Below, in pieces: positions 19,409 to 36,616 of a stretch of DNA of 64,000 nt; within the stretch, counting starts at the first letter, position 1; every line of letters starts with the position of its first letter. The notes beneath the pieces were generated by a model, which saw nothing but the letters and a program-made list of their open reading frames with translations, was not told the DNA's origin and made no database searches. The stretch is from Eubacteriales bacterium (GTDB lineage: Bacteria; Bacillota; Clostridia; Lachnospirales; Lachnospiraceae). Made by a program: the position numbers and the translations under genes. The stretch is from NCBI GenBank assembly GCA_030524715.1, contig JAUNGB010000007.1, positions 1-64,000 of the forward strand, in the 5' to 3' direction.

Positions 19409-19437
19409 TTGACAATAATTCTAAAGTCTGATACTAT
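19409..19437 (+). promoter_or_regulatory. Promoter of the catabolic operon
   Basis: TTGACA at 19409-19414 and TACTAT at 19432-19437 are separated by 17 bp. It is the only strong promoter seen before the transporter genes. A palindrome lies just downstream (19451-19460). Confidence 0.7.
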
Positions 19438-19446
19438 TTCCATATA

Positions 19447-19464
19447 AAGTCGTACGTACGTCTA
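19447..19464. promoter_or_regulatory. Palindrome downstream of the operon promoter
   Basis: The perfect palindrome CGTACGTACG occupies 19451-19460, beginning 14 bases after the -10, where a repressor would block elongation or open-complex escape. GntR-family operators often have GT(n)AC symmetry, so the GntR protein encoded at 31190 is the likely binder (inference). Confidence 0.45.
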
Positions 19465-19496
19465 ATGTCTATCAACCATTATACATATCTATGAGT

Positions 19497-19575
19497 GCGT
19501 ATAGGAAAGAAATTCCTGTAAAAGTACTTCGCGAAGCGGGAAATATCTCCTGCGGGAAAGAATTTTCCTATACGC
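19497..19575 (+). promoter_or_regulatory. Structured 5' leader of the catabolic operon
   Basis: GCGTATAGGAAA (19497-19508) is perfectly complementary to TTTCCTATACGC (19564-19575), closing a 55-base internal region. Inside, TTCCTG can pair with CGGGAA around a CTTCGCGAAG hairpin, or GCGGGA can pair with TCCTGC; the two are mutually exclusive. The ribosome site AAGGAGAGG begins within ten bases of the closing stem. No known riboswitch class is recognised. Confidence 0.45.
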
Positions 19576-19594
19576 TCCGGAAAAGGAGAGGGAT

Positions 19595-20887
19595 ATGAAG
19601 AAAAGAATTGCAGCGCTTATGATGGCGGGAATTATGGTATTGGGTAACAGCAGTATCGCTTTTGCTGAAGAAACTTCTTCCGGCGAAGGAAGCAGGAAAA
19701 TCAGCATTCTTACGTGGAGTGAGAGCGAGTGCCAGATTTATGCGGAGTCTTTTAATAAGATTTATCCGGACATTGAGGTGGAGATCATTCTTGCTGACAA
19801 CGGGGATGTCTACAGCAAGTTGGTTTCTATGGCATCTGCAGGAGAACAGATGCCGGATCTGGCATATGTGGAGATGAATACCCGCGGACAGCATCTTGCC
19901 CTTGATATCTGGGAAGATTTGTCCCAGGAACCCTATGGGTTCGACGGCTCCGCGCTGGAGGATTCCCTGAGCCAGGTTATTCGGGATCAGGACGGACGGG
20001 TCTGTATTGTGGAGCAGAATTACAACCCGGCGGGGATGCTCTATCGAAGAAGCCTTGCGGAACAATATCTGGGAACCTCGGATATGGAAGAGATCATGGA
20101 AATGATTCCTGACTGGGATGCCTTCTGTGAAGTGGGAGCGAAAATTTACGAAGAATCCGGCGGAAGCGTACGCGCCCTGCCCGGCCTGGATGAGATCAAC
20201 TGGATGATCGACAGCCAGTATACGGATAACGTTTATGATGCGGAATCAAATACCCTTTATCTTACCGATTATTTTACCTACATGTTTGATATTATGACGA
20301 AGCTTCGGGATAACAACTGCGTAGGAAAAGTGAACCGTTGGAGTACGGACTGGAATGCTTCCTATAATAATGGTACGGTTGTCTTCTGGCAGTTTGCGCC
20401 ATGGAGCGCCACCGGCGCGGTGAAGCCTAACGCAGAAGAACTGTCCGGCGATTTTTCAGTCATAAAGGCGCCCGGCGGCGCTTACTATCTGGGCGGTACC
20501 GGATGGGGAATGCTGGCGGACGGAGCCAATAAAGAGGACGCATGGCTGTTTATGGAACACTGCCTCCTGTCGGAAGAGGGCGTGGAAGAAGCAATGGATG
20601 AGATGGAAATGCTTACGCCTCTGAAGGGGTATTATGAGAGCCATCCGGATGCAACCAGCGAAGATGAGTTTTTCAACGGACAGAATGTAAATAAATATCT
20701 GCTGGAGGAAGTGGCTTCCGATATGACACTGAGAGCGCCCAGCGCCTATGACGGTTCCATTAAGACCGTTACGGCGACGGTCATGGGAATGATCCAGGAC
20801 GACGAAGGGATGACCTGTGAGGATGCGGTTGCGGCAGCCATGGATGAAATTACAATGCTGCTTCCGGGAGATGTGACGGTAGAATAA
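19595..20887 (+). CDS. ABC transporter extracellular solute-binding protein (sugar type)
   Basis: A 430-aa family-1 binding protein for an ABC importer. Residues 1-24 are a signal peptide (MKKRIAALMMAG...AFA). The mature part starts with SRKISILTWSESE and shows the usual family features: DLAYVEMNTRGQHL, NNGTVVFWQFAPW, GGTGWGMLADGANKEDAWLFMEH. Odd point: there is no Cys after the signal core, so it lacks the lipobox that anchors most Gram-positive binding proteins. AAGGAGAGG precedes ATG 19595. It is first in an operon with two permeases and ten further genes up to the regulator; the substrate is probably a sugar conjugate. Confidence 0.9.
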   Translation: MKKRIAALMMAGIMVLGNSSIAFAEETSSGEGSRKISILTWSESECQIYAESFNKIYPDIEVEIILADNGDVYSKLVSMASAGEQMPDLAYVEMNTRGQHLALDIWEDLSQEPYGFDGSALEDSLSQVIRDQDGRVCIVEQNYNPAGMLYRRSLAEQYLGTSDMEEIMEMIPDWDAFCEVGAKIYEESGGSVRALPGLDEINWMIDSQYTDNVYDAESNTLYLTDYFTYMFDIMTKLRDNNCVGKVNRWSTDWNASYNNGTVVFWQFAPWSATGAVKPNAEELSGDFSVIKAPGGAYYLGGTGWGMLADGANKEDAWLFMEHCLLSEEGVEEAMDEMEMLTPLKGYYESHPDATSEDEFFNGQNVNKYLLEEVASDMTLRAPSAYDGSIKTVTATVMGMIQDDEGMTCEDAVAAAMDEITMLLPGDVTVE

Positions 20888-20913
20888 AGCAGTGCGCCGG
20901 ACGGAGGTGAGCT

Positions 20914-21876
20914 ATGGAAAAAACGTTGTTGACCCACAGGAAGCTTACGCTGAATGAGCGTACGAGCCGTAAGGGTATCTGGTTTGTTCTGCCTTTTGTG
21001 ATCCTGTATGCGGTATTTAATTTATTTCCCCTTTTATACACGCTGTATCTGAGCTTTTATTCCTGGGACGGCATCGGCACAAAGGCTTTTGTCGGTATAT
21101 CCAATTATTTGAAGATATTTAAAGCCGACCGTCTTTTCTGGACCAGCTTTAAAAATGTTTTTCTGATCGTGATAGGTTATCTGCCGGTAACTTTGCTCCT
21201 GGCCTTCGTTGTGGCGGTTTTGCTGTATTCAAAAAATCTGAAGCTTCGCAGAACTTTTCAGACCTGTATGTTTCTTCCGTATGTGGTCGTACCCGTAGCG
21301 GTGGGGATGCTCTTTTCCATGCTGTTTGGGTGGCAGTCAGGGACAGTGAACGCACTTCTTATGAAGCTTCATATTATTTCTGAACCCATTGACTGGCTGG
21401 GAAGCCAGACATATGCCAGAGGCGTGGTGATCCTTCTGCAGATATGGAAAACGTTCGGGTATGTGACGACGCTGTATCTGTCCGCACTGACCAGCCTTCC
21501 CTCAGATGTAATGGACGCTGCTGCCATTGACGGGTGCAAATTTAAAAATCTGCTGTTCCATGTGATACTGCCGATGCTGAAGGAGATCACCATGTTTATC
21601 GTCATTACCACCCTGATTGACGGGCTGCAGCTTTTTGACGCAGTGAAGGTATTATTTACGGCGGGCAATACGGGAGCCGCCATTGGAGGGCCGGGAAGGA
21701 CTTGCCTTACGCCGGTGTGGTATCTGTATTATACAGCCTTTGGAAGCAGCGCCACAAGGAACTTTGGATATGCATCCGCCATCAGTTATGTGTTGTTTGC
21801 GGTGATCATGCTTTTTTCTGTAATCGTCATGATCCCCAACCTTCGCAGCGTAAAAAAAGACAGACGACAACAATAA
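20914..21876 (+). CDS. ABC sugar transporter permease (MalF/UgpA type)
   Basis: This 320-aa membrane protein has about six transmembrane helices, starting with WFVLPFVILYAVFNLFPLLYTLY. The EAA-loop that contacts the ATPase is AAAIDGCKFKNLLFHVILPML near residue 210. It follows the binding protein by 26 bp and precedes the second permease by 12 bp. No ATPase gene is in the operon, so a shared MsmX/UgpC-like ATPase from elsewhere is expected. Confidence 0.9.
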   Translation: MEKTLLTHRKLTLNERTSRKGIWFVLPFVILYAVFNLFPLLYTLYLSFYSWDGIGTKAFVGISNYLKIFKADRLFWTSFKNVFLIVIGYLPVTLLLAFVVAVLLYSKNLKLRRTFQTCMFLPYVVVPVAVGMLFSMLFGWQSGTVNALLMKLHIISEPIDWLGSQTYARGVVILLQIWKTFGYVTTLYLSALTSLPSDVMDAAAIDGCKFKNLLFHVILPMLKEITMFIVITTLIDGLQLFDAVKVLFTAGNTGAAIGGPGRTCLTPVWYLYYTAFGSSATRNFGYASAISYVLFAVIMLFSVIVMIPNLRSVKKDRRQQ

Positions 21877-21888
21877 GAGGTGAATGGA

Positions 21889-22713
21889 ATGATTCTTGGC
21901 AATAAACGAAAAAGAGCGCTGGTATACATCCTGCTGCTTTTGATTTCTCTGATCTGCTTATATCCGTTTTATATGATGCTGATCATGGGAACATATTCCA
22001 CCTATGATATTGGAAAAAGCGCCAGTATGCTGCCTGGCTCCTACCTGCTGGAAAATCTGAAAACAGTGTTTGAAAACGGTTTTATGATTTTTTATAAGAA
22101 CAGCTTTTACATAGCGATTTTTACAACGGTCATCACCTTGATCGTCAGCGCCCTTACAGGCTATGGGCTTGGGAAATTTGAATTTCCCGGTTCCCGGTTC
22201 CTGATGATCTTTATTGTTATAGCTATGATGATCCCCTCCCAGGTGGGGATCATCGGCTATATGATCGAAATCCGCTATCTGGGACTTGGGGGCACCAGGG
22301 AGGCGATCATTCTATATTATGCGGCCAACTGTTTCGGATCCTTTTGGATCACGCAGTATGTGAAAACCAATGTTCCCACGGAGGTACTGGAAAGCGCCCG
22401 CATTGACGGAAGCGGTGAATGGCGTATTTTCTGCCAGATCGTGGTTCCGTTTATTAAGCCGGCTCTGATGACCCTGGCGATTTTACAGTTTATGTGGAAC
22501 TGGAATAACTATATGCTTCCTCTTGTACTGCTCAATGATGTAGACCTGTATCCGGTAACGCTGGGAATTTCCCGGCTGGCAACGCAGTACGCCACCAACT
22601 ATGGGGCGCAGATCTGCGCGCTGTCTCTTGGAACTATCCCTCTGATCCTGATTTTTATCTTCGGTTCCAGATATTTTATTTCCGGCCTTACGGCAGGAGC
22701 TGTAAAGGGCTGA
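21889..22713 (+). CDS. ABC sugar transporter permease (MalG/UgpE type)
   Basis: A 274-aa second permease with about six transmembrane helices (VYILLLLISLICLYPFYMML first). The EAA-loop is ESARIDGSGEWRIFCQIVVPFIKP. ATG 21889 is chosen because AGAGG lies eight bases upstream; an in-frame GTG at 21880 is part of that site. It pairs with the MalF-like permease to form the importer channel. Confidence 0.9.
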   Translation: MILGNKRKRALVYILLLLISLICLYPFYMMLIMGTYSTYDIGKSASMLPGSYLLENLKTVFENGFMIFYKNSFYIAIFTTVITLIVSALTGYGLGKFEFPGSRFLMIFIVIAMMIPSQVGIIGYMIEIRYLGLGGTREAIILYYAANCFGSFWITQYVKTNVPTEVLESARIDGSGEWRIFCQIVVPFIKPALMTLAILQFMWNWNNYMLPLVLLNDVDLYPVTLGISRLATQYATNYGAQICALSLGTIPLILIFIFGSRYFISGLTAGAVKG

Positions 22714-22801
22714 GAAAAGCGGGCGGTATGCGGAAGCACAATAATTAAAAAACACAGTAATAAAAAATAAGAACAAAAACTATTCAGGAGGAATGAAAAC
22801 A

Positions 22802-23665
22802 ATGGCAAAAATGGCAAAGCTTGGGCTGCAGACCTGCAACGTACAAAACAATATGAGAAAAGATCCGATCCATACGTTTCGTGAAATTGCGGCGGCGGGA
22901 TACAGGTACGTGGAGGTGTCCAATTTTGATACCGTACATGACAAGGGGGCGGGATTTCATATGCCCGCTTCGGAACTGAATAAATTTTTGGACGATATTG
23001 GAGTAAAGATCGTTTCCATTATGTTTGATCCCTTTGACGATCTGGACGAGATGTGCGAATACCAGTGTGAGATCGGAAACCACAACGTGGTTTTTTCAAG
23101 AGATTATTATCAGAACCGGGAAGATGTATTAAGGCGGGCTGAGTGGCTGAACGAAACAGGAAAAATCTGTGCGAAGCACGGCATTTCTTTCCATTATCAT
23201 AATCATTTCCATGAATTTATGACACTTCCGGGAGAGGAAAAAACAATCTGGCAGATGCTTATGGAAAATACGGATCCGGAGCTGGTGAAGGTGGAAGTGG
23301 ATACCTTCTGGGTGATGAGAGGCGGAGTGGATCCGGCGGAACTGATCAGGAGCCTTGGCAGGAGAATTACCATGATTCATCAGAAGGATTACGCCAAGGG
23401 CCACGGCCACGAAATCTATCTTCCGGCCAGGGTGATTCCGGGAGAAGAAATGTGTCGTCCGGTTTATGACCGCATTGAGAACAAAGACACTTTCTGCGAG
23501 ATCGGATGGGGAATTATGGATATCCAGAAGATCATTGATGCAGGAAATGAAAGCGGCGTGCTGGAATATTTTATTCTGGAGCAGGACTGGACAAAGCTGG
23601 ATGAGTTTGAAAGTATCCGTATGAGTTATGAGGGAATGAAGCAGTTCCATGGCATTGAAATGTAA
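22802..23665 (+). CDS. Xylose-isomerase-like TIM-barrel protein 1
   Basis: A 287-aa sugar phosphate isomerase/epimerase family protein (AP_endonuc_2 fold). Such enzymes use a divalent metal held by Glu, Asp, His and Glu to isomerise, epimerise or eliminate on keto-sugars. Visible motifs: HYHNHFHEF (~137), KVEVDTFWVMRGG (~164), IHQKDYAKG (~192) and a late EQD. ATG 22802 is ten bases after AGGAGG; the ATG at 22793 is only one base from it. It is next to a Gfo/Idh/MocA gene, a pairing typical of keto-sugar catabolism and of 3-keto-glycoside cleavage systems. Confidence 0.85.
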   Translation: MAKMAKLGLQTCNVQNNMRKDPIHTFREIAAAGYRYVEVSNFDTVHDKGAGFHMPASELNKFLDDIGVKIVSIMFDPFDDLDEMCEYQCEIGNHNVVFSRDYYQNREDVLRRAEWLNETGKICAKHGISFHYHNHFHEFMTLPGEEKTIWQMLMENTDPELVKVEVDTFWVMRGGVDPAELIRSLGRRITMIHQKDYAKGHGHEIYLPARVIPGEEMCRPVYDRIENKDTFCEIGWGIMDIQKIIDAGNESGVLEYFILEQDWTKLDEFESIRMSYEGMKQFHGIEM

Positions 23666-23713
23666 CGGACGTTTGACGTATGGAAAATATTTGAGGAAGA
23701 AGGGAGAGTTGCT

Positions 23714-24862
23714 ATGAATAACAGAGTAGGGGTGATCGGCTGCGGCAACATTGCGCAGGTTTATCTGGAGGATTTTGAAAAAAGCTACCGCAGACAGATA
23801 ACGGTGGCAGCCTGCGCGGATATTGTTCCGGAAAAAGCCAGGGAAACAGCGGAGAAATATGGCGTGCCCAAGGCATGTACGCCAGAAGAACTGGTCCGGC
23901 TTCCGGAAGTGGACATTGTTCTGAATCTGACGGTGCCTGCCGTCCACAACAGCATAAATCGGATGGCATTGGAAGCCGGAAAGCATGTATATTGTGAAAA
24001 GCCTCTGGCGCTTTCCCTGGAGGATGCAAAGGTAACCCTGGATCTGGCAAAAAAGAAGGGACTGCGGGTGGCCTGCGCGCCGGATACCATTCTGGGGCCT
24101 GCCATACAGACCAGCCGGAAGCTTTTGGACGACGGATGGATAGGAACCCCGTTTGCGGCTTCCACAAACATCACAGGCTGGGGCCCTGAAACGTGGCATC
24201 CCAATCCGGGATTTTTCTATCAGTACGGAGGAGGCCCTCTGCTTGATATGGGTCCTTATGCGGTGGCCGCTCTTGTAAATCTGTTCGGTCCCATGAAGCG
24301 TATGCAGTGTATTGCCACGAAAGCACTGGATGAGCGGATGATCTACTCTGATCCCAGGAAAGGGGAAAGGATTCCTGTGGAGGTTCCCACCCATTATTCC
24401 GGGAGCGCTCAGATGGCCAATGGTGTAGTAGTAGGTATGACTATGAGTTTCGATACCTGGAAATCCAGTCTTCCCCCACTGGAAATTTATGGAACTGAGG
24501 GAACTCTTCAGGTTCCCCATCCTGCGGATTTTGCGGGGAAAATACGTCTTTACCGGGCAAACGGCATCATCGATGAGCTGGAAGGACGCGGAGCGGTGGA
24601 GGAAAAAGACCGTTGGTATGAGATTCCGGCGATTCTTGGAGGCTCTGTGGGAAACCGCCGGGGAATCGGCGTAGCAGATCTGGCGGCAGCTATACGGCAG
24701 GGGAGGCCCCACAGGACAGGGGAAGATTTCATACTGCACTGCACGGAAATACTTCTGTCATTTGACCAGGCGGTAAAGGACGGCGGCGCTTATGAATTTA
24801 CAACTGTATGCAAACGGCCGGAAAGGATGCCTACAGGGCTTGAGATCGGACAGGTAGATTGA
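23714..24862 (+). CDS. Gfo/Idh/MocA-family oxidoreductase 1
   Basis: A 382-aa NAD(P)-dependent dehydrogenase. The N-terminal Rossmann fold carries GVIGCGNIAQVY, the conserved CEKPLALS motif lies near residue 97, and the C-terminal substrate domain has LLDMGPYAVAAL. Members oxidise or reduce a hydroxyl on sugars, inositols or glycosides. An AGGGAGAG ribosome site precedes ATG 23714. It lies between a TIM-barrel isomerase and an amidohydrolase. The exact substrate cannot be read from sequence. Confidence 0.88.
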   Translation: MNNRVGVIGCGNIAQVYLEDFEKSYRRQITVAACADIVPEKARETAEKYGVPKACTPEELVRLPEVDIVLNLTVPAVHNSINRMALEAGKHVYCEKPLALSLEDAKVTLDLAKKKGLRVACAPDTILGPAIQTSRKLLDDGWIGTPFAASTNITGWGPETWHPNPGFFYQYGGGPLLDMGPYAVAALVNLFGPMKRMQCIATKALDERMIYSDPRKGERIPVEVPTHYSGSAQMANGVVVGMTMSFDTWKSSLPPLEIYGTEGTLQVPHPADFAGKIRLYRANGIIDELEGRGAVEEKDRWYEIPAILGGSVGNRRGIGVADLAAAIRQGRPHRTGEDFILHCTEILLSFDQAVKDGGAYEFTTVCKRPERMPTGLEIGQVD

Positions 24863-24883
24863 GAAAGAGACAGGAGATAACAG

Positions 24884-26233
24884 ATGAGGACATGGATTAG
24901 AAATGCAAAGGCAATCGTTACAGTAGATGAAGAAGACCGGGTGCTGGCTGATGCCGGTATTCTGATCGAAGACGGTATAATTCTCCAGGTGGATGGGGAA
25001 AGATATTCCGCCGATCAGGTGATCGACGCAGAAGGGTGTATTATCTATCCGGGACTTATCAATACCCATCACCATTTGTATCAGACCTTTACCAGGAACC
25101 TTCCGCAGGTACAGAGAATGGAACTGTTTCCCTGGCTGAAAGCATTGTATGAGATCTGGCGTGGGCTGAATGAGGCGTGTATTTATTCCAGTTCTCTGGT
25201 AGGCATGGGAGAGCTTATGAAATATGGATGTACTACCTGTATGGATCATCATTATGTATTTCCGAAAATCGGTTCGGAGCATTTTATCGATCAGCAGTTC
25301 CTGGCGGCGGATGAACTGGGAATTCGTTTTCACGCTACCCGGGGAAGTATGTCCAGGGGAGTCAGCGACGGCGGCCTTCCGCCGGATGACCTGGTACAGA
25401 ATTTGGATACAATTCTAAAGGACAGTGAGAGGCTTGTAAAAAAATATCATGACCCGGCGCCCTTTTCCATGCATCAGGTAGCTCTGGCGCCGTGTTCTCC
25501 CTTCAGTGTTACAACAGAGCTTCTTAAGGAATCCGCAGCCTTGGCGAGGCAGCTGAAGGTACGGCTTCACACTCATCTTTGCGAGACAAAGGATGAAGAA
25601 CGCTTCTGCCTGGGGATGGTAGGGATGCGCCCACTGGAATATATGGAATCCTGCGGCTGGGTTGGTCCGGATGTGTGGTTTGCCCACGGAATTTATTTTA
25701 ACGAAGAGGAATTGCGGCTTCTCGTGGATACAGGCACAGGAGTGGCTCATTGTCCTGCTTCCAATATGAAGCTGGCTTCCGGTGTATGTCAGCTTCCGAG
25801 AATGCTGGAACTGGGAATTCCCACAGGACTGGCGGCAGACGGGAGCGCAAGCAATGACTGCTCCAATCTGATGGAAGAGATCAGGCTTTCCTATCTTCTG
25901 CACCGGCTTTCTTCCAGCGGGAAGGCGCCTACAGGATACGAGATCCTGAAACTCGCCACCAGAGGAAGCGCCGCGGTTCTTGGAAGAAATGATATCGGTT
26001 CGCTAGAAAAAGGAAAAGCGGCAGATCTGTTTATGATCGACACAAATCTGCTGGAATGCGTGGGGGCGGATTACGATCCGGCAAACCTTTTAGGCACGGT
26101 GGGGTATCACCGTCCGGCGAAGCTGGTTATGGTACAGGGAAACATTGTTGCCCGTGATGGAAGACTGGTAAACATCGACGAAGAGAAGGTTTCCGTGGAC
26201 GCCAGAAGACTGGTGCGGCAGCTTTTGACGTAA
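24884..26233 (+). CDS. Amidohydrolase, 8-oxoguanine deaminase-like
   Basis: A 449-aa member of the amidohydrolase superfamily (TrzA/AtzB/8-oxoguanine deaminase group). Metal ligands are visible as NTHHHLYQ (~63), HTHLCETKDE (~230), FAHGIYF (~266) and LAADGSASNDCSN (~317). The TRNLPQ...LFPWLKALYEIWRGL and TTCMDHHYVFP segments match 8-oxoguanine deaminases, which convert 8-oxoguanine to urate and ammonia. Members of this group also deaminate other amino-heterocycles, so the true substrate may differ. It follows the first oxidoreductase by 21 bp. Confidence 0.8.
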   Translation: MRTWIRNAKAIVTVDEEDRVLADAGILIEDGIILQVDGERYSADQVIDAEGCIIYPGLINTHHHLYQTFTRNLPQVQRMELFPWLKALYEIWRGLNEACIYSSSLVGMGELMKYGCTTCMDHHYVFPKIGSEHFIDQQFLAADELGIRFHATRGSMSRGVSDGGLPPDDLVQNLDTILKDSERLVKKYHDPAPFSMHQVALAPCSPFSVTTELLKESAALARQLKVRLHTHLCETKDEERFCLGMVGMRPLEYMESCGWVGPDVWFAHGIYFNEEELRLLVDTGTGVAHCPASNMKLASGVCQLPRMLELGIPTGLAADGSASNDCSNLMEEIRLSYLLHRLSSSGKAPTGYEILKLATRGSAAVLGRNDIGSLEKGKAADLFMIDTNLLECVGADYDPANLLGTVGYHRPAKLVMVQGNIVARDGRLVNIDEEKVSVDARRLVRQLLT

Positions 26234-26289
26234 GAGATACGTGTATAAGAAATACAGTGGTTTTGGAGTGTTTTCAGGAGGGGAGTTAT

Positions 26290-27342
26290 ATGGTAAAAAT
26301 AGGAATCATCGGATGCGGCAAAATTGCGCAGATCCGTCATATTCCGGAATATATTCAAAATCCGGACGCAAAAATCATTGGCTTTTATGATCTGAACAGG
26401 GAACGCGCCGGGAAACTGGCAGCCAGGTACGGGGCGGCGGCGTATGATTCCGTGGAAGAACTCCTGGCGGATCCCGGGATAGACGCGGTTTCCGTCTGCA
26501 CGGCAAATCATGCCCATGGCCCCATCACCATCGCGGCATTAAGGGCAGGAAAGCATGTATTATGTGAAAAACCCATGGCTGTCACAGAAGAAGAATGTGA
26601 ACAGATGGTGGAGGAAGCCAGAAAAGCCGGAAAATTCTTGATGATAGGGCAAAACCAGCGGCTTGCCCGGGTTCATGTAAAGGCCCGGGAGCTGATCAGG
26701 CAGGGGGAAATCGGAAAAATATTGACTGCCCGGACAAGCTTTGGGCACGGCGGACCGGAAAGCTGGTCTGTGGATTCGGGAAAAGGGACCTGGTTCTTTG
26801 ACAAAGACAAGGCGGTTATGGGGGCAATGGCAGACCTGGGGATTCACAAAACGGATCTTTTGCAATATCTCTGCGGCGGCACCATCCGCCGGGTAACTGC
26901 CAGGACTGCCACTCTGGATAAGCGTTACGAAGACGGAACTCCCATCAGTGTGGAGGACAACGGATTCTGCATTTATGAAATGGATAACCATGTATTTGCC
27001 TATATGAACGCTTCCTGGACCTGTTATGGGAAGGAAGAGAATTCCACCGTATTATACGGAACAGAGGGAACCCTGCGTATCTGCGACGATCCTGCGCATT
27101 CAATCGTGCTGATCAAAAAGAACGGGGAACGGTATCTGTATGACGTGGAACCCATCCAGACAAACCATTCCCAGAGCCGTTCGGGGGTGATCGATCTCTG
27201 GATAGACAGCCTTGTCCGCCGGAAAAAGCCAGAAATTTCTGGAGAAAGCGTACTGCCGGCCATGCGCGCGGTGTTCGGCGCAATGGTCTCTGCCAGGGAA
27301 GGAAGAACCGTTGAGGTTAATCAACAGGAGGTGAGGGAATGA
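26290..27342 (+). CDS. Gfo/Idh/MocA-family oxidoreductase 2
   Basis: A 350-aa second NAD(P)-dependent dehydrogenase. Rossmann motif IGIIGCGKIAQIRHIPEY at the N-terminus, CEKPMAV near residue 94, and MADLGIHKTDLL in the C-terminal domain. It is only distantly like oxidoreductase 1, suggesting separate steps (for example oxidation of a glycoside and reduction of the released keto-sugar). ATG 26290 follows AGGAGGGGAG. The stop overlaps the start of the next TIM-barrel gene, implying translational coupling. Confidence 0.88.
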   Translation: MVKIGIIGCGKIAQIRHIPEYIQNPDAKIIGFYDLNRERAGKLAARYGAAAYDSVEELLADPGIDAVSVCTANHAHGPITIAALRAGKHVLCEKPMAVTEEECEQMVEEARKAGKFLMIGQNQRLARVHVKARELIRQGEIGKILTARTSFGHGGPESWSVDSGKGTWFFDKDKAVMGAMADLGIHKTDLLQYLCGGTIRRVTARTATLDKRYEDGTPISVEDNGFCIYEMDNHVFAYMNASWTCYGKEENSTVLYGTEGTLRICDDPAHSIVLIKKNGERYLYDVEPIQTNHSQSRSGVIDLWIDSLVRRKKPEISGESVLPAMRAVFGAMVSAREGRTVEVNQQEVRE

Positions 27343-28256
27343 AGCTCGGGCTGCTTACATCGATTTTGGACGGATGGAGTTTTGAGGAAGCGGTAGATCT
27401 TGCCTCGGATATGGGATTTTCCTGCCTGGAGGCTGCCTGCTGGCCGAAAGGGGAGGCGAAACGCCGTTATGCGGGGGTCAGCCACATTGATTGTGAACGG
27501 ATATGTAAAGATCCCGGCTATGCGTCCTATGTGAAAGAATATGCAGGAGAAAAAAACATTTCGATTTCGGCGCTGGCTTTTTATCCGAATCCTATGGATG
27601 CCAATCCGTCTGTCCGGGAAGAGGCAGTCCGCCACCTGAAGCGGGTGATTCAGGCTGCTTCCATCCTTGACGTGAATGTGGTTACTACGTTTATCGGAAA
27701 AAATCAGTATCGGACAGTGGAAGAAAATATAGAATTATTTGCCGGAACCTGGGAAGGGCTCATTGCCATGGCAGGAAAGCTGGGAGTAAAAATAGCGATT
27801 GAAAACTGTCCTATGCTGTTTGGCCCGGATCAGTGGCCGGGCGGACAGAATCTCATGTGTACGCCTGTGATTTTCCGCAGGCTGTTCCAACGGATTCCGG
27901 CGGAAAATTTCGGGCTGAATTTTGATCCCAGCCACTTTGTCTGGCAAGGGCTGGACTATATAAAAACCGTTTATGAATTTCAGGACCGGATTTTCCATAT
28001 TCATTTCAAGGATATCAAACTGTATACTGATAAGCTGAAGGAATGCGGCGTTCTGGCATATCCCCTGGAATACATGTCTCCTAAGCTTCCCGGGCTCGGG
28101 GATGTGGACTGGGGCGGGTTTATCAGCGCACTCAACGACATCCGGTACGAAGGCAGCGCGGTGATCGAGATAGAGGATAAGGCTTTTGAAGGCTCCAGAG
28201 AGGAAATCCTGCGTTCCATCGCATTATCAAAACGATACTTGTCGCAATATCTGTAA
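27339..28256 (+). CDS. Xylose-isomerase-like TIM-barrel protein 2
   Basis: A 305-aa sugar phosphate isomerase/epimerase. The canonical metal site is complete: IENCPM (Glu, ~148), FDPSHFVWQG (Asp/His, ~190), FHIHFKDIK (His, ~220) and IEIEDKAF (Glu, ~280). The first ATG overlaps the previous stop (ATGA). It forms a second oxidoreductase/isomerase pair in the same operon. Confidence 0.87.
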   Translation: MKLGLLTSILDGWSFEEAVDLASDMGFSCLEAACWPKGEAKRRYAGVSHIDCERICKDPGYASYVKEYAGEKNISISALAFYPNPMDANPSVREEAVRHLKRVIQAASILDVNVVTTFIGKNQYRTVEENIELFAGTWEGLIAMAGKLGVKIAIENCPMLFGPDQWPGGQNLMCTPVIFRRLFQRIPAENFGLNFDPSHFVWQGLDYIKTVYEFQDRIFHIHFKDIKLYTDKLKECGVLAYPLEYMSPKLPGLGDVDWGGFISALNDIRYEGSAVIEIEDKAFEGSREEILRSIALSKRYLSQYL

Positions 28257-28311
28257 ACTACAGAAAACAAAGCGGGCGGCGGATGTCCGCGTAAGATCGG
28301 GAGGAAGAATA

Positions 28312-28953
28312 ATGGAATTTTTATCTTATGATCCATGGGCAAACGTATACTCCAGAAACGGGTATATGGCGGACGAACTGCGGGAGGGTCTGCATAAAAC
28401 TATACGCCGGAATAATCCGGAGCTGGCTGTCAGGATTGCCTATGAAATGTACATTACAAGCGAACAGATGGAGGATATGCTGTGGAGACGCCTGGCAATC
28501 ATGTCCGTGGAGGATATCGGGCTGGCGGATCCTATGGCTCCGGTGGTAGTAGATACTCTGGAAAGAATGAGGAAGCTTCATCCGTACAATGATATCGACC
28601 GGGCGACTTATTTTGCGCAGGCAATCCGTTATCTTTGCAAGAGCGAAAAGGATCTGACCTGCGGTATCCTGATGGGAAAAATCCGAAAGGAATTTGAAAG
28701 GGGGATTTTTCCGGAAATTCCAAAAGAGGCTTATGACATGCACTGCAAAAAAGGAAGAGACGTGGGAAAGAAAATGTCTGATTTCCTGCAGGAGGGAAAT
28801 GTGGTAGATCCGCCTTCCATATATTACGAGGCGAAAGAGTATAAGGAACTTGAGAAAAGCCTTTTGGAAATGACCCGTGAGGAGATGAACGGGACAGCAG
28901 AGAAGAAGGAACTGGATGTGCAGCCCTTTGAGGTTGCTCCATACTTTATATGA
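28312..28953 (+). CDS. Free-standing MgsA/RarA C-terminal-like protein
   Basis: A 213-aa protein resembling only the C-terminal oligomerisation part of the MgsA/RarA clamp-loader-like ATPases: WRRLAIMSVEDIGLADPMA is the family hallmark. There is no Walker A or B and no AAA+ domain. ATG 28312 is chosen for the GGGAGGAAG just before it. It is tightly embedded between a TIM barrel and an amidohydrolase (12 bp to the latter), so it probably serves the catabolic operon, not replication. Its function there is unknown. Confidence 0.65.
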   Translation: MEFLSYDPWANVYSRNGYMADELREGLHKTIRRNNPELAVRIAYEMYITSEQMEDMLWRRLAIMSVEDIGLADPMAPVVVDTLERMRKLHPYNDIDRATYFAQAIRYLCKSEKDLTCGILMGKIRKEFERGIFPEIPKEAYDMHCKKGRDVGKKMSDFLQEGNVVDPPSIYYEAKEYKELEKSLLEMTREEMNGTAEKKELDVQPFEVAPYFI

Positions 28954-28965
28954 TAAGGGAGGAAA

Positions 28966-30252
28966 ATGATCGGATTTATGAGCAGTATTGTTTTAAAGAA
29001 TATTGATAAAATTGTAAGCGGAGATATCCGGCAGGGAATCCTTCCGGGAGACTGCATTGTGGTGAGGGAAGGGATCATCGCGGAGGTCGGCTATGAAAAA
29101 GACCTGGATACCAGCGGTATTGAGACGGTTGTGGATGTAGACGGACAAATCGTATGCCCGGGCTTTATCGACTGCCATATCCATAATACGCTGGATGATT
29201 ACGCGCCTCAGCGAGGTGCGGTGGGATGCTATTCGGACGCGCTTTATGGAGGAACCACCAGCATGATATCCGAAGGGGAGCAGGGACCCGGCTGGCCGAG
29301 ATTTTATGACGACCCGGTGGGGTGCAAGGCGGCGGCTATCATGGCAAAACGTGTGTTTGACCGATATCGTCCGGGAGGCGGTTTAAAGTTCCACGGAGGG
29401 GCGCTGGTACTGGTACATGGCCTTACGGAACAGGATTTTAAGGAAATGCACGACGCCGGGGTTTGGCTGATTGCTGAAATCGGGGGAGGCGGCCTGTCCG
29501 ATCCCCGGGAGGTGGAACCTATGCTGGAATGGGCGCGTAAATATGGATTTTTCTATTCCGTGCATCTGGCCCCTCCCTCCATTCCCGGTTCGTCGTGGGT
29601 CACCTCCGAGGAAATCCTGAAGCTGAAGCCTGATAAAGTGGCTCATACAAACGGAGGGTCAACCGGCGTTTCCTTTGACCATATCCAGCGATTGATGGAT
29701 GAGAGTGAGATTCCCCTGGAACTGGTGGTAAACGGAAATTTTGTGAACTTTAACAAAATGATGCGTCATATGGATGCGAAGAACGAGCTGGATCGTCTTG
29801 TCTTTGGAAGCGACGCGCCTACGGGACAGGCATCCCTTTCCGGGGCTATGAACCGTGCCATCGTAAAAGCTTCTTCACTCAATGATGTTCCGGCATGGAA
29901 GTGCATTGCCATGGCAACGGGCAATACGGCAGATCTGTATGGATTGAATACCGGAAAAATAGAAGCGGGAAGAGAGGCGGATCTTCAGGTAATCGACTGC
30001 CCGCCCGGTTCCTGCGGAACGGACGCGTTAAAGGCCATTGAATGCGGGGATCCCTTTGGAAATTCCATGGTGATCGTAGACGGAAGGATCGTTGCGTATC
30101 GCGGTAAGGATTCCAGGCCTACGGCAAGATACTGTTTGGTAAACGGGCAGAAAGCTTTTGTTTCCGGAATTACGGAACACCTTTTCTTTCCACCGCAGCC
30201 CGGCAGGCATTATGAGGGAATGAGCGCCCAGACAACGTTCGGACGTCTCTGA
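28966..30252 (+). CDS. Amidohydrolase, enamidase-like
   Basis: A 428-aa amidohydrolase resembling enamidase of nicotinate fermentation (Eubacterium barkeri), which hydrolyses a cyclic enamide and opens the ring. Shared landmarks: FIDCHIHNTLDDYAPQ (metal HxH), LYGGTTSMIS, KFHGGALVL (carrying the bridging Lys region), IPGSSWVTSEEI, KVAHTNGGSTGVS (His) and VFGSDAPTGQ (Asp). A later in-frame ATG at 28978 is possible, since GGGAGG lies only three bases before 28966. Ring opening of an N-heterocycle is inferred from the family. Confidence 0.78.
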   Translation: MIGFMSSIVLKNIDKIVSGDIRQGILPGDCIVVREGIIAEVGYEKDLDTSGIETVVDVDGQIVCPGFIDCHIHNTLDDYAPQRGAVGCYSDALYGGTTSMISEGEQGPGWPRFYDDPVGCKAAAIMAKRVFDRYRPGGGLKFHGGALVLVHGLTEQDFKEMHDAGVWLIAEIGGGGLSDPREVEPMLEWARKYGFFYSVHLAPPSIPGSSWVTSEEILKLKPDKVAHTNGGSTGVSFDHIQRLMDESEIPLELVVNGNFVNFNKMMRHMDAKNELDRLVFGSDAPTGQASLSGAMNRAIVKASSLNDVPAWKCIAMATGNTADLYGLNTGKIEAGREADLQVIDCPPGSCGTDALKAIECGDPFGNSMVIVDGRIVAYRGKDSRPTARYCLVNGQKAFVSGITEHLFFPPQPGRHYEGMSAQTTFGRL

Positions 30253-30263
30253 AGGAGGAAGTC

Positions 30264-31010
30264 ATGTATCGGAAAATCAACGAATTAACCTGGGATACGG
30301 TGGCTTCACTGGATCCTGAATCTGTATTTTATGTTCTGCCGGTAGGCTCTCTGGAACAGCATGGCCGCGCACTGCCGCTGGGAACAGACGACCTGATCCT
30401 GACAAGCTCTCTGGAGGCCGCGGCCGGCCGTGCCAGACTTCAGAACTGCTTTTTGCAGCTTCCGAATATTCATTATGGAAACAGCTATGAGCACATGGAT
30501 TTCGCAGGCACAGTAACCCTTGGGTGCGGCCTGCTGGCCAAAATGGTGGAGTCGGTAATGGAATCCATGAACAGGCACGGATTTCGCCGCCTGATCGTGA
30601 TCAATTCCCACGGAGGCAACACAGCGGTCTTTCAGGCGTACGCACAGGAATGGGAACAGAAATTCGGCGTACGGATGTACACAGTGAATTTCTTTGGTTC
30701 AGAGTTTTTCAAGGACGCTCAGCCGATGCTTCAGACCTCCCTGGAAAATGAAATCCACGGAGGCGAACTGGAGGCTTCTTATATCAGTTATGCTTATCCG
30801 GAATTATTTCATAAAGAAATGGCGGTTCCTGAAAGGGATGTGACGGTCAGCCTGAAGGAATATCATCCCGGATGGCTGACGCGGGATTTGTCTCCGGATA
30901 ATGGCCTCCTTGGAATGGCTTCCCGTGCGGATACCGGGAAAGGTGAAAAGCTGTATGAATATATGGCGGAAAAGCTGAAGAACTATCTGGAGCTGTTCGA
31001 CCGCATGTAA
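30264..31010 (+). CDS. Creatininase-family amidohydrolase
   Basis: A 248-aa creatininase-family protein. Metal-binding motifs: LPVGSLEQHGRALPLGTD (Glu, His, Asp; ~28), INSHGGNTA (His, ~114) and IHGGELEAS (Glu, ~165). The family includes creatinine amidohydrolase, FAPy deformylase, MftE and 3-dehydro-scyllo-inosose hydrolase, all acting on C-N or C-C bonds of small rings or formamides. AAGGAGG precedes ATG 30264, 11 bp after the enamidase-like gene. It is the last structural gene of the operon. Confidence 0.82.
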   Translation: MYRKINELTWDTVASLDPESVFYVLPVGSLEQHGRALPLGTDDLILTSSLEAAAGRARLQNCFLQLPNIHYGNSYEHMDFAGTVTLGCGLLAKMVESVMESMNRHGFRRLIVINSHGGNTAVFQAYAQEWEQKFGVRMYTVNFFGSEFFKDAQPMLQTSLENEIHGGELEASYISYAYPELFHKEMAVPERDVTVSLKEYHPGWLTRDLSPDNGLLGMASRADTGKGEKLYEYMAEKLKNYLELFDRM

Positions 31011-31011
31011 G

Positions 31012-31053
31012 GCGTTCAGAATCAACTGGAAAGGCGTTCAAAATCAATTGGAA
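31012..31053 (+). repeat. Tandem 20/21-bp repeats after the creatininase gene
   Basis: GGCGTTCAGAATCAACTGGA (from 31012) is followed directly by GGCGTTCAAAATCAATTGGA (from 31033), with two differences. They lie immediately downstream of the stop codon. Function unknown; possibly the trace of a slippage duplication or a regulator-binding array. Confidence 0.6.
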
Positions 31054-31067
31054 ATATTTGCATTTTC

Positions 31068-31115
31068 TATTATTTTAAGCTAAAATAATATTCGGGGCAA
31101 AAAATATTTTGCCCC
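31068..31115. promoter_or_regulatory. Two palindromes before gntR
   Basis: TATTATTTTA, three bases, TAAAATAATA (31068-31090) is a perfect 10-bp inverted repeat; GGGGCAAAA, four bases, TTTTGCCCC (31094-31115) is a perfect 9-bp one. Neither is followed by a clear T run. They may end the operon transcript or be operators of the GntR gene. Confidence 0.5.
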
Positions 31116-31123
31116 TACAATAT

Positions 31124-31157
31124 CGGATTGCTATGCATAGTGTGCACCGGCAATCCG
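31124..31157. promoter_or_regulatory. Inverted repeat just upstream of gntR
   Basis: CGGATTGC (31124-31131) and GCAATCCG (31150-31157) are perfect complements 18 bases apart and enclose the palindrome CTATGCATAG (31131-31140). It lies 33 bases before the gntR start, a good position for autoregulation. Confidence 0.4.
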
Positions 31158-31189
31158 CAAAAAATAGAAAAGGTACATGAGGTTTGGAT

Positions 31190-31918
31190 ATGAATAAGCT
31201 GATAAAAGAACGATCTCTGGCAAGGCAAGCTTATGATCAGTTAATCGAAATGATCAGAAGCATGAAGCCGGGGCAGAACAGGTTACCCTCTGAGGACGAA
31301 CTTTCCAAGTCTATGGGTATCAGCAGGGCTACGGTACGGGAAGCTCTGAAAAGTCTGATGCTGGACAAATTGATCACAACCGTTCATGGAAGGGGAACAT
31401 TCGCGCATCCTTCCGTATTACAGTTAAATGAACGGATCGACCGAAGAAGTGATTTTTTTAAAATGCTGAACGAGCAGTATGCTAATACAAGCGTGGATAT
31501 CCAGTGGAAGAATCATGTGCCGGGAAATGCGTTGTGCAAGGCTGTTTTCGGAGAGCAGGAAGAGGATTTCCTGGAGTCCTTCTGGTCCTATATTGCAGAT
31601 GACAGGAAAATGCTGTTCTGCCATTTCTATTTTCCGCAGACCTATCTGAAAAAAATTCCGGCGGAAAGGGAGATTTTTGTGTCTCTTCCAAAGTATAGTG
31701 AAGCCTGTATGAAAGAACCTATTGTTTACTGTTCCATGAAGCCGAGGATCCGCTACAGCCAATCAGCCGCCGAGTATTTTTCTCTTCCGGCTGTTACGCC
31801 CCTGCAGTGCTGGGAAGAGAAGATTTATGATATTGAAGACCGGCTGGTGGGTGTGGGAGAGGTATTTATGCACCCGGAAAATATGGAAGTTTCTGTTGTG
31901 ACAAAATTTGAATTTTAA
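31190..31918 (+). CDS. GntR-family regulator (HutC/UTRA-like)
   Basis: A 242-aa transcription regulator. The N-terminal winged helix has RLPSEDELSKSMGISRATVREALKSL (~30-56) and a wing TVHGRGTF. The C-terminal part resembles a UTRA effector-binding domain, ending in VGVGEVFMHPENMEVSV. ATG 31190 lies seven bases after GAGG; an in-frame TTG at 31184 is less likely. Its position at the end of the catabolic operon suggests it senses an operon intermediate and binds sites such as 19451-19460. Confidence 0.85.
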   Translation: MNKLIKERSLARQAYDQLIEMIRSMKPGQNRLPSEDELSKSMGISRATVREALKSLMLDKLITTVHGRGTFAHPSVLQLNERIDRRSDFFKMLNEQYANTSVDIQWKNHVPGNALCKAVFGEQEEDFLESFWSYIADDRKMLFCHFYFPQTYLKKIPAEREIFVSLPKYSEACMKEPIVYCSMKPRIRYSQSAAEYFSLPAVTPLQCWEEKIYDIEDRLVGVGEVFMHPENMEVSVVTKFEF

Positions 31919-31953
31919 GACAAATACGCTTTGACGCGTATCCGTAAGAAGTT

Positions 31954-31985
31954 AAATCCCCTGTGGCTTGCCGCGGGGGATTTAT
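31954..31985 (+). terminator. Terminator after gntR
   Basis: AAATCCCC (31954-31961) and GGGGATTT (31976-31983) form the stem with a GGC/GCC inner pairing; an AT-rich tail follows. It closes the operon. Confidence 0.6.
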
Positions 31986-32626: not shown

Positions 32627-32720
32627 AATACAGCCCATTAGAAAACCGTTTATCAGAAAACGGGCAGCGGGCAGGCGGGACACGTCCAAAACAGAATGAG
32701 TTAATAAAAGGAGTTCTTTG

Positions 32721-34520
32721 ATGAACATTATCAATATTGAACATATCAGCAAAATATTCGGAGAAAAAACAGTCTTTGAGGATGCCTCCTTCGGCATTCA
32801 TGAGGGGGATAAGATCGGGATCGTGGGAATTAACGGTACGGGAAAAACAACGCTGCTTCGTATGGCAGCCGGATTGGAGGAACCGGACGAAGGGCAGATC
32901 ATCCGCCATAATAACCTGAAGATCGCCTACCTTCCCCAGAATCCCGTATTTCCCGCAGACGCCACTGTGCTTTCGTACGCCCAGGACGGCAAAGAAGACT
33001 GGAAGGTGCAGAGCAATTTAAACCAGCTTGGGATTACGGAATATGATACCCGTATCGAGCATTTGTCCGGCGGGCAGAAGAGAAAGGTTGCGCTGGCGAA
33101 GGTGCTGGCGGAGGATTTTGACATACTTTTGCTGGATGAACCCACCAACCATCTGGATGAAAGCATGGTCATATGGCTTGAGGAATACCTGCGGAGCTTT
33201 AAGGGGACGATACTGATGGTGACCCACGACAGGTATTTCCTGGACCAGGTGACCAATAAGATCCTGGAGATCAGCCACGGAAAGATATACGGCTATGATT
33301 CCAATTATTCCGGATTTCTGGAGCTGAAGGCAGAGCGGGAGGAAATGGAGCTTGCCTCTGAACGTAAGCGGCAGAGTATCCTGCGCATGGAGATCGAATG
33401 GGCGAAGCGGGGCTGCCGGGCAAGAAGCACCAAGCAGCGCGCAAGGCTGGAACGGCTGGAAGCCTTAAAGAACGGCGCGGCTCCCATACAGGATCAGACT
33501 GTGGAACTGGATTCCATTGAGACGAGGATGGGCAAAAAGACCATAGAACTTCATCACCTGGGCAAACGCTTTGGAGAGAAGGTTATTCTGGAGGATTACA
33601 GCTATATTTTCTTAAAAAACCAAAAGGTGGGGATCATCGGCCCCAACGGCTGCGGTAAATCCACCTTTGTAAAAATGATCGCCGGACTGGCGGAACCGGA
33701 TCATGGAAGCATAGAGACGGGAGAAACCATCCGCATCGGCTATCTCGCCCAGGAAGAGCAGCACATGGATGAAAAGCAGCGGGTCATTGACTATGTAAAG
33801 GATATCGGCGAGTACATTACCACAAAAGAGGGAAAGATCAGCGCCTCCCAGATGCTGGAGCGCTTTCTGTTCACCCCTGATATGCAGTACGCCCCCATCG
33901 GGAAGCTTTCCGGCGGAGAAAAAAGGCGCCTGTATCTGCTGGGCGTCCTATGCGGGAATATGAATGTCCTGATCCTGGATGAGGCAGGCAATAACCTGGA
34001 TATCCCCACCCTTACCATTCTGGAGGATTATCTGAACTCCTTTTCCGGAATTGTGATCACGGTGTCCCATGACCGGTATTTTCTGGACAATGTGGCGGAC
34101 AGGATTCTGGAATTTGAGGGAAACGGGCAGATCTGCCAGTATGAAGGAGGCTATACGGATTACCGGGAGGCAAAAAGTAAAAAGGCGGCGGACAACGGGA
34201 GTACGGCAGCGCCTGACAGCGGCCGGAATACGCAGGAGGAATCCCGTTCATCCGGGAAGGACTGGAAACAGAACCGTCCGTCAAAATTAAAATTTACATT
34301 TAAAGAACAGCGGGAATATGAAACCATCGACGGGGATATTGCCGCCCTTGAAGAAAAAATTGCAAAGCTTGACGCCGATATCTTGGCAAACGCCACAAAC
34401 TCCGGTAAGCTTAACGAGCTGACGGCCCAAAAAACTCTGGCGGAGGCGGAGCTTGACGCCAAAATGGACCGTTGGGTATATTTAAATGATCTGGCAGAGA
34501 GAATTGAAGCCCAGGGATAA
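32721..34520 (+). CDS. ABC-F family ATPase
   Basis: A 599-aa soluble protein with two ABC ATPase domains and no membrane part. Walker A motifs GINGTGKTT (~36) and GPNGCGKST (~303), signatures LSGGQKRK and LSGGEKRR, and Walker B LLLDEPTNHLD and LILDEAGNNLD are visible. ABC-F proteins act on the ribosomal E site in translation or antibiotic protection. In the second Walker B the usual PTNHLD is AGNNLD, a clear deviation. The C-terminal region (~545-599) is a coiled coil. ATG 32721 follows AAAAGGAG. Confidence 0.88.
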   Translation: MNIINIEHISKIFGEKTVFEDASFGIHEGDKIGIVGINGTGKTTLLRMAAGLEEPDEGQIIRHNNLKIAYLPQNPVFPADATVLSYAQDGKEDWKVQSNLNQLGITEYDTRIEHLSGGQKRKVALAKVLAEDFDILLLDEPTNHLDESMVIWLEEYLRSFKGTILMVTHDRYFLDQVTNKILEISHGKIYGYDSNYSGFLELKAEREEMELASERKRQSILRMEIEWAKRGCRARSTKQRARLERLEALKNGAAPIQDQTVELDSIETRMGKKTIELHHLGKRFGEKVILEDYSYIFLKNQKVGIIGPNGCGKSTFVKMIAGLAEPDHGSIETGETIRIGYLAQEEQHMDEKQRVIDYVKDIGEYITTKEGKISASQMLERFLFTPDMQYAPIGKLSGGEKRRLYLLGVLCGNMNVLILDEAGNNLDIPTLTILEDYLNSFSGIVITVSHDRYFLDNVADRILEFEGNGQICQYEGGYTDYREAKSKKAADNGSTAAPDSGRNTQEESRSSGKDWKQNRPSKLKFTFKEQREYETIDGDIAALEEKIAKLDADILANATNSGKLNELTAQKTLAEAELDAKMDRWVYLNDLAERIEAQG

Positions 34521-34585
34521 TAAAGATAATAGGATAACAAAGATAATAGGGATAGTAAGGATATTAAGGAAAAGGGGAATTCACC

Positions 34586-35098
34586 ATGGCAAAGCATCCC
34601 ATGACAACATTGTGCTATGTGGAAAAAGACGATGCCTATCTGATGATGCATCGGATTTCCAAGAAAAATGATGTAAATAAAGACAAATGGATCGGTATCG
34701 GCGGGCATTTCGAGGAAGGGGAAAGCCCGGAGGACTGCCTGCTCCGGGAGGCATATGAGGAGACAGGGCTTACTCTTACTTCCTGGCAGTTCTGCGGAAT
34801 CGTGACCTTCACCCTGGAGGGCTACGGAACAGAATATATGTGCCTGTATACCGCGGACGGCTTTGAGGGAACCCTGAAGGAATGCGATGAAGGAACCCTG
34901 GAATGGATTCCCAAAAAAGATCTTTTAAGCCTGAATTTATGGGTAGGGGATCTGATCTTTTTAAAGCTTTTAAGAGATAAGGCACCCTTCTTTTCCCTGA
35001 AGCTTGTTTATCGGGGAGAGGAACTGACAGAGGCGGTTCTGGACGGAAAGGAGATTCCTCTTCCACTGGTACTGTCCGGCTATTCAGACACTTTATAG
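34586..35098 (+). CDS. NUDIX hydrolase (MutT-like)
   Basis: A 170-aa NUDIX protein. The box GHFEEGESPEDCLLREAYEE starts at ~residue 37 and continues TGL, fitting GX5EX7REUXEEXGU. It resembles 8-oxo-dGTP diphosphatase-like enzymes (ECDEGTLEWIPKKDLLSLNLW in the second half). Such enzymes clean oxidised nucleotides, but substrate cannot be fixed from sequence. The upstream gap is an A/G-rich GATAATAGG-like low-complexity stretch. Confidence 0.85.
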   Translation: MAKHPMTTLCYVEKDDAYLMMHRISKKNDVNKDKWIGIGGHFEEGESPEDCLLREAYEETGLTLTSWQFCGIVTFTLEGYGTEYMCLYTADGFEGTLKECDEGTLEWIPKKDLLSLNLWVGDLIFLKLLRDKAPFFSLKLVYRGEELTEAVLDGKEIPLPLVLSGYSDTL

Positions 35099-35177
35099 GA
35101 TTATTTAGACATTGGATTATTCAGACACATTACCTATATAACTATAGGATAAAGAAATGAAATCAGGAGGAATTAAA

Positions 35178-36200: not shown

Positions 36201-36294
36201 GCCTTTCCCTTTGGGGACTTTTCTGTATATAGATTTTGTAAATGAATTTTGTATATGGATTGAAACGGATTGAAACAAGGAAGGAGCTATGGTA

Positions 36295-36525
36295 ATGGAG
36301 CTTGAGAAGCTGAAGGCCATTATTGGAGATGTCATGAACACTGATCCCGCCGACATTACGGAGGAAACCACATTTGTGGATGATCTTGGGGCGGACTCTC
36401 TTGACGTTTTCCAGATCATTATGGGAATCGAGGAAGAGTATGACATTGAGATCGATAATGAAATTGTAGATCAGATTCAGTCTGTGCAGGATGCCGTGGA
36501 CGCGATCCGCCGGATAACAGGCTGA
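36295..36525 (+). CDS. acpP: Acyl carrier protein
   Basis: A 76-aa acyl carrier. GADSLDVFQ holds the Ser that receives 4'-phosphopantetheine. ATG 36295 is eight bases after AAGGAG; ATG 36289 would be only two away. It sits between plsX and rnc, the common Firmicutes order. Confidence 0.93.
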   Translation: MELEKLKAIIGDVMNTDPADITEETTFVDDLGADSLDVFQIIMGIEEEYDIEIDNEIVDQIQSVQDAVDAIRRITG

Positions 36526-36616
36526 TAAAAAAAGGAGACAGGAATCCCGGATTCCCATATGGCGGCGGGAGGCCAGAAGGCCGGAAGGCATTCCTGGATT
36601 CAGATTGGAGATAAAA

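Follow-up and report, generated by a model that had tools for sequence, protein, structure and literature searches.

A Lachnospiraceae operon that may import and break down a glycoside with a nucleobase-like aglycone

The cleavage of glycosides through 3-keto intermediates is known from the levoglucosan genes lgdA/B1/B2/C, the Agrobacterium genes GlycDH-AtOGE-AtHYD and the puerarin operon of strain PUE. According to two reports (PMC10628242, PMC7676230), glycoside operons of this kind pair two oxidoreductases with two proteins resembling sugar phosphate isomerases, and the chemistry consists of oxidation, elimination, hydration and reduction. A comparable set was found in contig JAUNGB010000007.1 of a Lachnospiraceae bacterium of the gut (genome 5.28 Mb), of which the first 64,000 nucleotides were analysed (the window, G000:C14 in our labelling). 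It is part of an operon of twelve genes, named A to L. Like the published operons, this one has two oxidoreductases (of the Gfo/Idh/MocA type or another in the known cases), two TIM-barrel proteins and an adjoining importer, and the eliminase residues are kept in D. It differs in that the set is joined to a deaminase, an enamidase-like hydrolase and a creatininase-family hydrolase.

The genes of the operon and the matches on which their names are based are:

19595 to 20887, + strand: A, solute-binding protein (SBP_bac_8, 3.5e-20)
20914 to 21876, + strand: B, importer permease (from sequence; permeases of other loci match at 26-30%)
21880 to 22713, + strand: C, importer permease (from sequence; matches at 26-31%)
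22793 to 23665, + strand: D, AP_endonuc_2 TIM barrel, probable 3-keto-glycoside eliminase (8BVK, AtOGE, 5.1e-16)
23714 to 24862, + strand: E, GFO_IDH_MocA protein, probable glycoside/keto-hexose 3-dehydrogenase (DgpA1, 6.1e-22)
24884 to 26233, + strand: F, 8-oxoguanine/isocytosine-type deaminase (NF006055, 577.3 against a cut-off of 532; 7WW2, 1.2e-117)
26290 to 27342, + strand: G, second GFO_IDH_MocA protein (DgpA, 6.4e-35)
27339 to 28256, + strand: H, second AP_endonuc_2 TIM barrel, probable 2-hydroxy-3-keto-glycal hydratase (8RO4, 1.9e-6)
28312 to 28953, + strand: I, stand-alone MgsA_C-like protein (MgsA_C, 32.7 against a cut-off of 27)
28966 to 30252, + strand: J, enamidase-like hydrolase, putatively ring-opening (Amidohydro_1; 2VUN, 330 bits)
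30264 to 31010, + strand: K, creatininase-family hydrolase (Creatininase family match)
31184 to 31918, + strand: L, GntR-family regulator (family scan)

The operon can be divided into two modules, D/E/G/H and F/J/K. We give an even chance to the reading that it imports and breaks down a glycoside with a nucleobase-like aglycone. The glycoside would be imported by A, B and C, powered by a shared ATPase, and the base would be freed from the sugar by D/E/G/H, a front end acting through 3-keto elimination. F would then swap the amino group of the freed base for oxygen, J would break an enamide bond and so open the ring, and K would hydrolyse the leftover lactam, ureido or amide bond. Ammonia and small acids would be the products, with no redox step in F-J-K, and L would control the operon. 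In other anaerobes, the ring may be freed by phosphorylase-family or similar enzymes or be taken up free. What the data show directly is the gene content, its conservation, the clades, the conserved residues and the neighbourhoods; from these we infer every catalytic step, the order of the steps and the kind of substrate.

The gene content and coordinates of the original prediction, which had been drawn from the DNA letters, were borne out. All twelve genes are open and every one lies on the + strand; B and C were named without a family scan, from their sequence and a weak likeness to transporter permeases. The importer had been described as having no ATPase, and no ATPase gene occurs in A to L. 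A MalK-type ATPase is encoded at G000:C121:3418-4563, with no recognised permease among its direct neighbours. The genes from A to K are spaced between a 4-base overlap and a gap of 79 bases, taking 26290 as the start of G and the ATG at 28312 as that of I (searches with I used the start 28306, which is two residues longer). Spacing is the sole basis on which we infer that A to K are co-transcribed.

The first module has the composition of the four-enzyme 3-keto pathway, with a pair of oxidoreductases and a pair of isomerase-like TIM-barrel proteins in one operon. D matched the Agrobacterium O-glycoside eliminase AtOGE, for which PMC10628242 gives the metal site H132, D163, H189 and E233 and the catalytic residue H134. 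The counterparts in D, paired by order and spacing and not by structure, are H136, D170, H196, E263 and H138, and they were invariant in all 10 D sequences. The top matches of E and G were DgpA-type glycoside dehydrogenases. H matched best to 2ZDS (5.5e-18), a structure with no assigned function, and weakly to the 2-hydroxy-3-keto-glucal hydratase 8RO4. The association of the Gfo/Idh and TIM-barrel pairs with 3-keto glycoside cleavage, made in the original prediction, agrees with the published operons, and D/E/G/H is probably a 3-keto glycoside-cleavage set that would release the aglycone via a 2-hydroxy-3-keto-glycal. Homologs of D (E at most 1e-25) were present in 10 of the 246 genomes of the order, the window's genome included. 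Nine of their neighbourhoods were examined, from 12 matches outside the window. D, a Gfo gene, an H-like gene and a second Gfo gene stood together in two of them (L090, L091), and Gfo, D and an H-like gene in another two (L094, L095). L093 had one Gfo gene beside the D homolog, and in the remaining four no partner was recognised. Matches to F, J or K at 1e-6 were seen in none of the nine.

In the second module, F passed the curated NCBIfam model for 8-oxoguanine deaminase, and it matched the solved structure 7WW2. Its score with the SsnA model was far below the cut-off (176 against 444). According to PMC6186785, relatives of F act on isocytosine, guanine and 8-oxoguanine, and PMC12828455 ties a glutamine after strand 1 to substrates of the guanine type. 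At that place, in the motif HHHLYQ, F also carries a glutamine, and the Asp-Gly pair is present. F suggests, and does not prove, a 2-amino-4-oxo ring as the substrate. In these features F is like the 8-oxoguanine/isocytosine deaminases; it is unlike them in its link to J and K. When 43 F sequences were placed in a tree, from which three duplicate triad loci had been omitted, the 16 J-linked F required 5 changes, as against 13.2 in shuffles.

The nearest solved relative of J was the enamidase 2VUN of the nicotinate pathway, with 43% identity over the aligned part. Common to both are H71, H73, E171, H200, H227 and D283, which we take to be the metal ligands, and by sequence both belong to the same fold family. 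A quick tree built from 44 sequences set the enamidase clade, 2VUN included, apart by a branch with support 100; all 19 J sequences came together in a group with support 80. At thresholds of 95% and 85%, the clades differed in 27 fixed positions (among them Q82, R83, Q106, W110, A202 and P203), and the J clade has an extra C-terminal block with EHLFFPP. The structure predicted for J with an alignment of 10 sequences had a mean pLDDT of 51.5, too low for use. Among 398 genomes of the phylum, J had matches in 20; four of these were above 830 bits and the rest at 218-392 bits, and one of the four genomes carries a second J copy at 542. In the tree, the window's J grouped with L039, L040 and L056, from Oscillospiraceae-type records and Anaerotruncus (support 88), and two copies from Blautia, most likely the genus of the window as well, L044 and L052, grouped with L042 (support 96). 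This pattern points to horizontal transfer.

K scored below the cut-offs of four families: creatininase (83 against 235), MftE (96 against 172), IolN (70 against 245) and ArfB (28 against 180). A creatininase in the strict sense was rejected on the first of these scores. For I, a strong match as a stand-alone MgsA_C protein came from G107, the one other genome among 299, and from two others among 246, and L048 has a 79% match; hits below 37 bits in frames of mostly at least 430 residues were taken as full-length RarA/MgsA and dropped. The homolog in G107 lies beside a phosphorylase, a Bmp importer, DeoC and a PfkB kinase. That in G530 (L086, 5325-14178) is near PTS genes, a GH4 glycosidase, a phosphorylase and a Metalloenzyme-superfamily gene, and that in G386 (L085, 9661-13470) is near an ADP-ribosylglycohydrolase. 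In all five places seen, I was near nucleoside or glycoside genes.

The co-occurrence of F, J and K was then counted by tblastn with matches of at least 45 bits. Full-length J was present in two of 61 relatives, the window's own genome and G009, which belongs to the same genus; the other matches, at E 1.4e-8 or worse, were partial and dropped. The alignment of these two J was used to scan species genomes and gave 31 loci, of which 15 had a J of at least 78% identity. Three more loci (70-72%) came from a search with F in 299 genomes, so that with the window 19 loci with a J of at least 70% were available. L036 was left out as a duplicate of L044. The enamidase clade, which neighbours that of J, supplied 21 control loci, 13 from the species-genome scan and 8 from another search; L053-L055 and L163 were kept outside both groups. 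F was present in 16 of the 19 J loci (missing in L042, L043 and L046) and K in 17 (missing in L043 and L050, and cut by the contig end in L046). Full-length F and K were found in 0/21 control loci each. Some of the missing cases have little sequence: L046 ends about 0.6 kb past J, L050 is a contig of 5.2 kb, and L042 ends inside a phosphorylase gene that adjoins F in related loci.

The importers of the J loci were of the PnrA/BMP type in nine, of the SBP_bac_8 type in four and of the Peripla_BP_4 type in three, and the window has its own; none was seen in L046 and L050. Phosphorylase-superfamily genes were present in six loci and ADP-ribosylglycohydrolase genes in two. F, J and K therefore co-occur, often beside PnrA-type importers or enzymes of N-glycosidic bonds, so that the substrate is best read as a nucleobase-like heterocycle that carries a sugar. 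To this extent the original prediction of a glycosylated nitrogen heterocycle stands, and the three examples that it gave (oxidised nucleoside, C-nucleoside, plant alkaloid glycoside) remain candidates. Among the outcomes that it had named as refuting, a lack of co-occurrence elsewhere applies in part, since F, J and K do co-occur and D/E/G/H lie beside the three in none of the other 18 loci. F-J-K is best read as a hydrolytic dismantling of a nucleobase-like ring with exchangeable sugar-removing front ends. More tentatively, and at less than even confidence, we propose that F-J-K is a so far undescribed, redox-free anaerobic route in which a (modified) nucleobase undergoes deamination, enamide ring opening and creatininase-type hydrolysis. 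This route would have moved between Bacillota, Chloroflexota and Spirochaetota with exchangeable front ends, and the 3-keto elimination of a nitrogen-linked glycoside would be new among these. In line with the original prediction, which knew of no pathway with this set, no published description of the F-J-K triad was found in a literature search without most subscription papers and all preprints, and enamidase and creatininase were not found together as a word pair in the same literature.

Several points weigh against this interpretation. The link of the 3-keto set to the triad rests on one genome, since D/E/G/H stands beside it in 1/19 loci, the window itself, and the likeness of H to the hydratase is weak. 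F is common without J (40 of the 299 genomes have it at E at most 1e-90, the window's included), and the J-linked F are clustered and do not form one clade. K is 30-66% identical between loci. L043 has J and an importer without F or K and is a real exception in the sequence examined. The neighbour counts of the J loci stand without a background rate for random genes. A BMP/PnrA-type importer is also present in 2/21 control loci (L065, L067), so that this importer alone is not specific. Eight triad loci with a PnrA importer have no phosphorylase or ADP-ribosylglycohydrolase match in the sequence examined, and the compound imported there may be the free base.

The main rival explanation places F-J-K in purine breakdown of the xanthinase type. 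F would convert guanine to xanthine, J would open xanthine to give a ureido-imidazole carboxylate, and the ureido group would then be taken off by K. The activity of F relatives on guanine and the PnrA-type importers at triad loci would suit it, and the order of reactions fits the classic clostridial route as given in PMC3519856. The later genes of that route were not recognised in the triad loci, in which not every neighbour was named, and J had no NCBIfam match above about 43 bits in the window or 53 bits in L128. We regard this rival as unlikely. In PMC12507026, a reductive uric acid route is described for anaerobes and a xanthinase gene cluster of 2023 is cited; according to PMC3519856, no gene for the xanthine-specific amidohydrolase was detectable in C. 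acidurici as of 2012. Both routes break down nucleobase-like rings anaerobically with amidohydrolases, as F-J-K is proposed to do, and F-J-K would be unlike them in that a creatininase-family enzyme takes part. From the reductive uric acid cluster, an XDH-type match was found in 0/19 J loci; HyuA, YgeW, YgeX and YgeY were not searched one by one.

The operon could also combine two unrelated pathways, with D/E/G/H splitting an ordinary plant O-glycoside and F-J-K scavenging nitrogen from a free base. Both modules occur apart elsewhere, and the minimal loci L045 and L051 consist of an importer with J, F and K alone. However, the window has a single importer and tight spacing, and F sits between E and G, and we consider it improbable that the two modules serve separate substrates. 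It is very improbable that J is the enamidase of a nicotinate pathway and the operon degrades a pyridine. The identity to 2VUN and the common ligand residues would favour this, but J falls in a separate clade, and the genes that accompany the enamidase, AA_synth in 19/21 control loci and a molybdenum hydroxylase in 6/21, had no match in the 19 J loci. J was accordingly rejected as a nicotinate-pathway enamidase. The alternative offered by the original prediction, catabolism of the inositol type, in which K would be a 3-dehydro-scyllo-inosose hydrolase, is scarcely credible, as the weak matches of K, E, G, D and H to the IolN, IolG and IolE models all stay far below the curated cut-offs (IolG 71 and 152 against 355, IolE 50 and 43 against 290, and IolN as above) and F and J have no role in such a pathway.

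For the nucleobase-like ring itself, vicine-type pyrimidine glucosides, formamidopyrimidines, queuine, creatinine and glycation imidazolones were tried as the base and found no support. No riboswitch that could name the ligand was detected between 18700 and 32800 of the window up to E 0.5. At gathering thresholds, a scan of 23 loci gave just three tRNAs and one cobalamin riboswitch, the latter at L128:11854-12033, downstream of the K of that locus.

Other neighbours of J were a SIS-domain protein (6/19), a cupin pair (5/19) and a relative of the GntR gene (10/19 and one partial match). The cupins, of about 160 residues each, lie beside a PfkB kinase in L044 (3835-4797) and have counterparts in L041, L042, L052 and L056. 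One of them weakly resembles ureidoglycolate lyase (PF04115, 23.8 bits against a cut-off of 23) and possibly performs a later step on a ureido product. Queries with the SIS and cupin proteins against solved structures gave weak matches only. In two spirochaete loci an AMP-binding acid-CoA ligase lies directly 3' of F (L049, 12635-14143; L050, 2977-4482), which might mean that the ring yields an acid in need of activation. The Leptolinea triad locus L047 has a pterin-binding methyltransferase-like gene (8432-9322), and its substrate may thus be methylated. A diverged second set lies in L163 (4609-10658) beside BMP-type importer genes; the identities are 53% for its J, 32% for the F-like and 28% for the K-like protein, and ornithine cyclodeaminase-family and FMN reductase genes accompany it. 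The genome with L163 also has a close triad, L131. The L163 set hints that the three activities belong together. Three Hadesarchaeal loci have a J at 50-53%, with an F-like protein (27-28%) in two and K in none. A comparison of the motifs by which the nucleoside phosphorylases recognise the base proves nothing. As a parallel to the ADP-ribosylglycohydrolase genes, E. coli yegTUV offered no usable function in the abstracts consulted.

The transcription signals around the operon are the following:

19409 to 19437, + strand: promoter-like site (TTGACA, spacer of 17, TACTAT, TG before the -10; consensus match only)
19448 to 19463, no strand assigned: near-perfect 16-base palindrome 3' of the promoter, a candidate site for a regulator (single occurrence in the window)
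31953 to 31984, + strand: terminator-like stem-loop 3' of L (consensus match only)

The region holds 27 promoter-like sites against 18.7 expected, so that a single site is weak evidence. One promoter and one GntR gene had been predicted; a consensus promoter and a single L are present, and L, 173 bases from K, may have its own promoter. Between the promoter and A, an inverted repeat (19497-19575) has perfect 12-base arms 55 bases apart and no Rfam match. On the right flank, an ABC-F gene, PlsX and a gene at 36605 were syntenic in 5/7 relatives compared (matches at 60% coverage and 1e-15), and with a Nudix gene they form a block conserved in the genus (window 32718-37327). Upstream of ABC-F, none of the window genes was found in about 8-13 kb of each of the seven relatives. 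The operon thus adjoins a conserved block at a variable site. Two very long reading frames also lie in the window, at 890-10114 (3074 residues) and 11527-17814 (2095 residues); the second has a signal-like start and ends with PDGT-rich repeats and fibronectin-like segments in the style of a surface protein.

The carriers of the F-J-K module include a cultured type strain, Anaerotruncus colihominis DSM 17241. If the proposed reading is true, F-J-K would be a compact module that lets anaerobes of the gut and of digesters use nucleobase-like rings from the diet or the host without redox enzymes. It would then stand beside the two published anaerobic purine routes, and 3-keto glycoside elimination would be extended to aglycones with a nitrogen ring.

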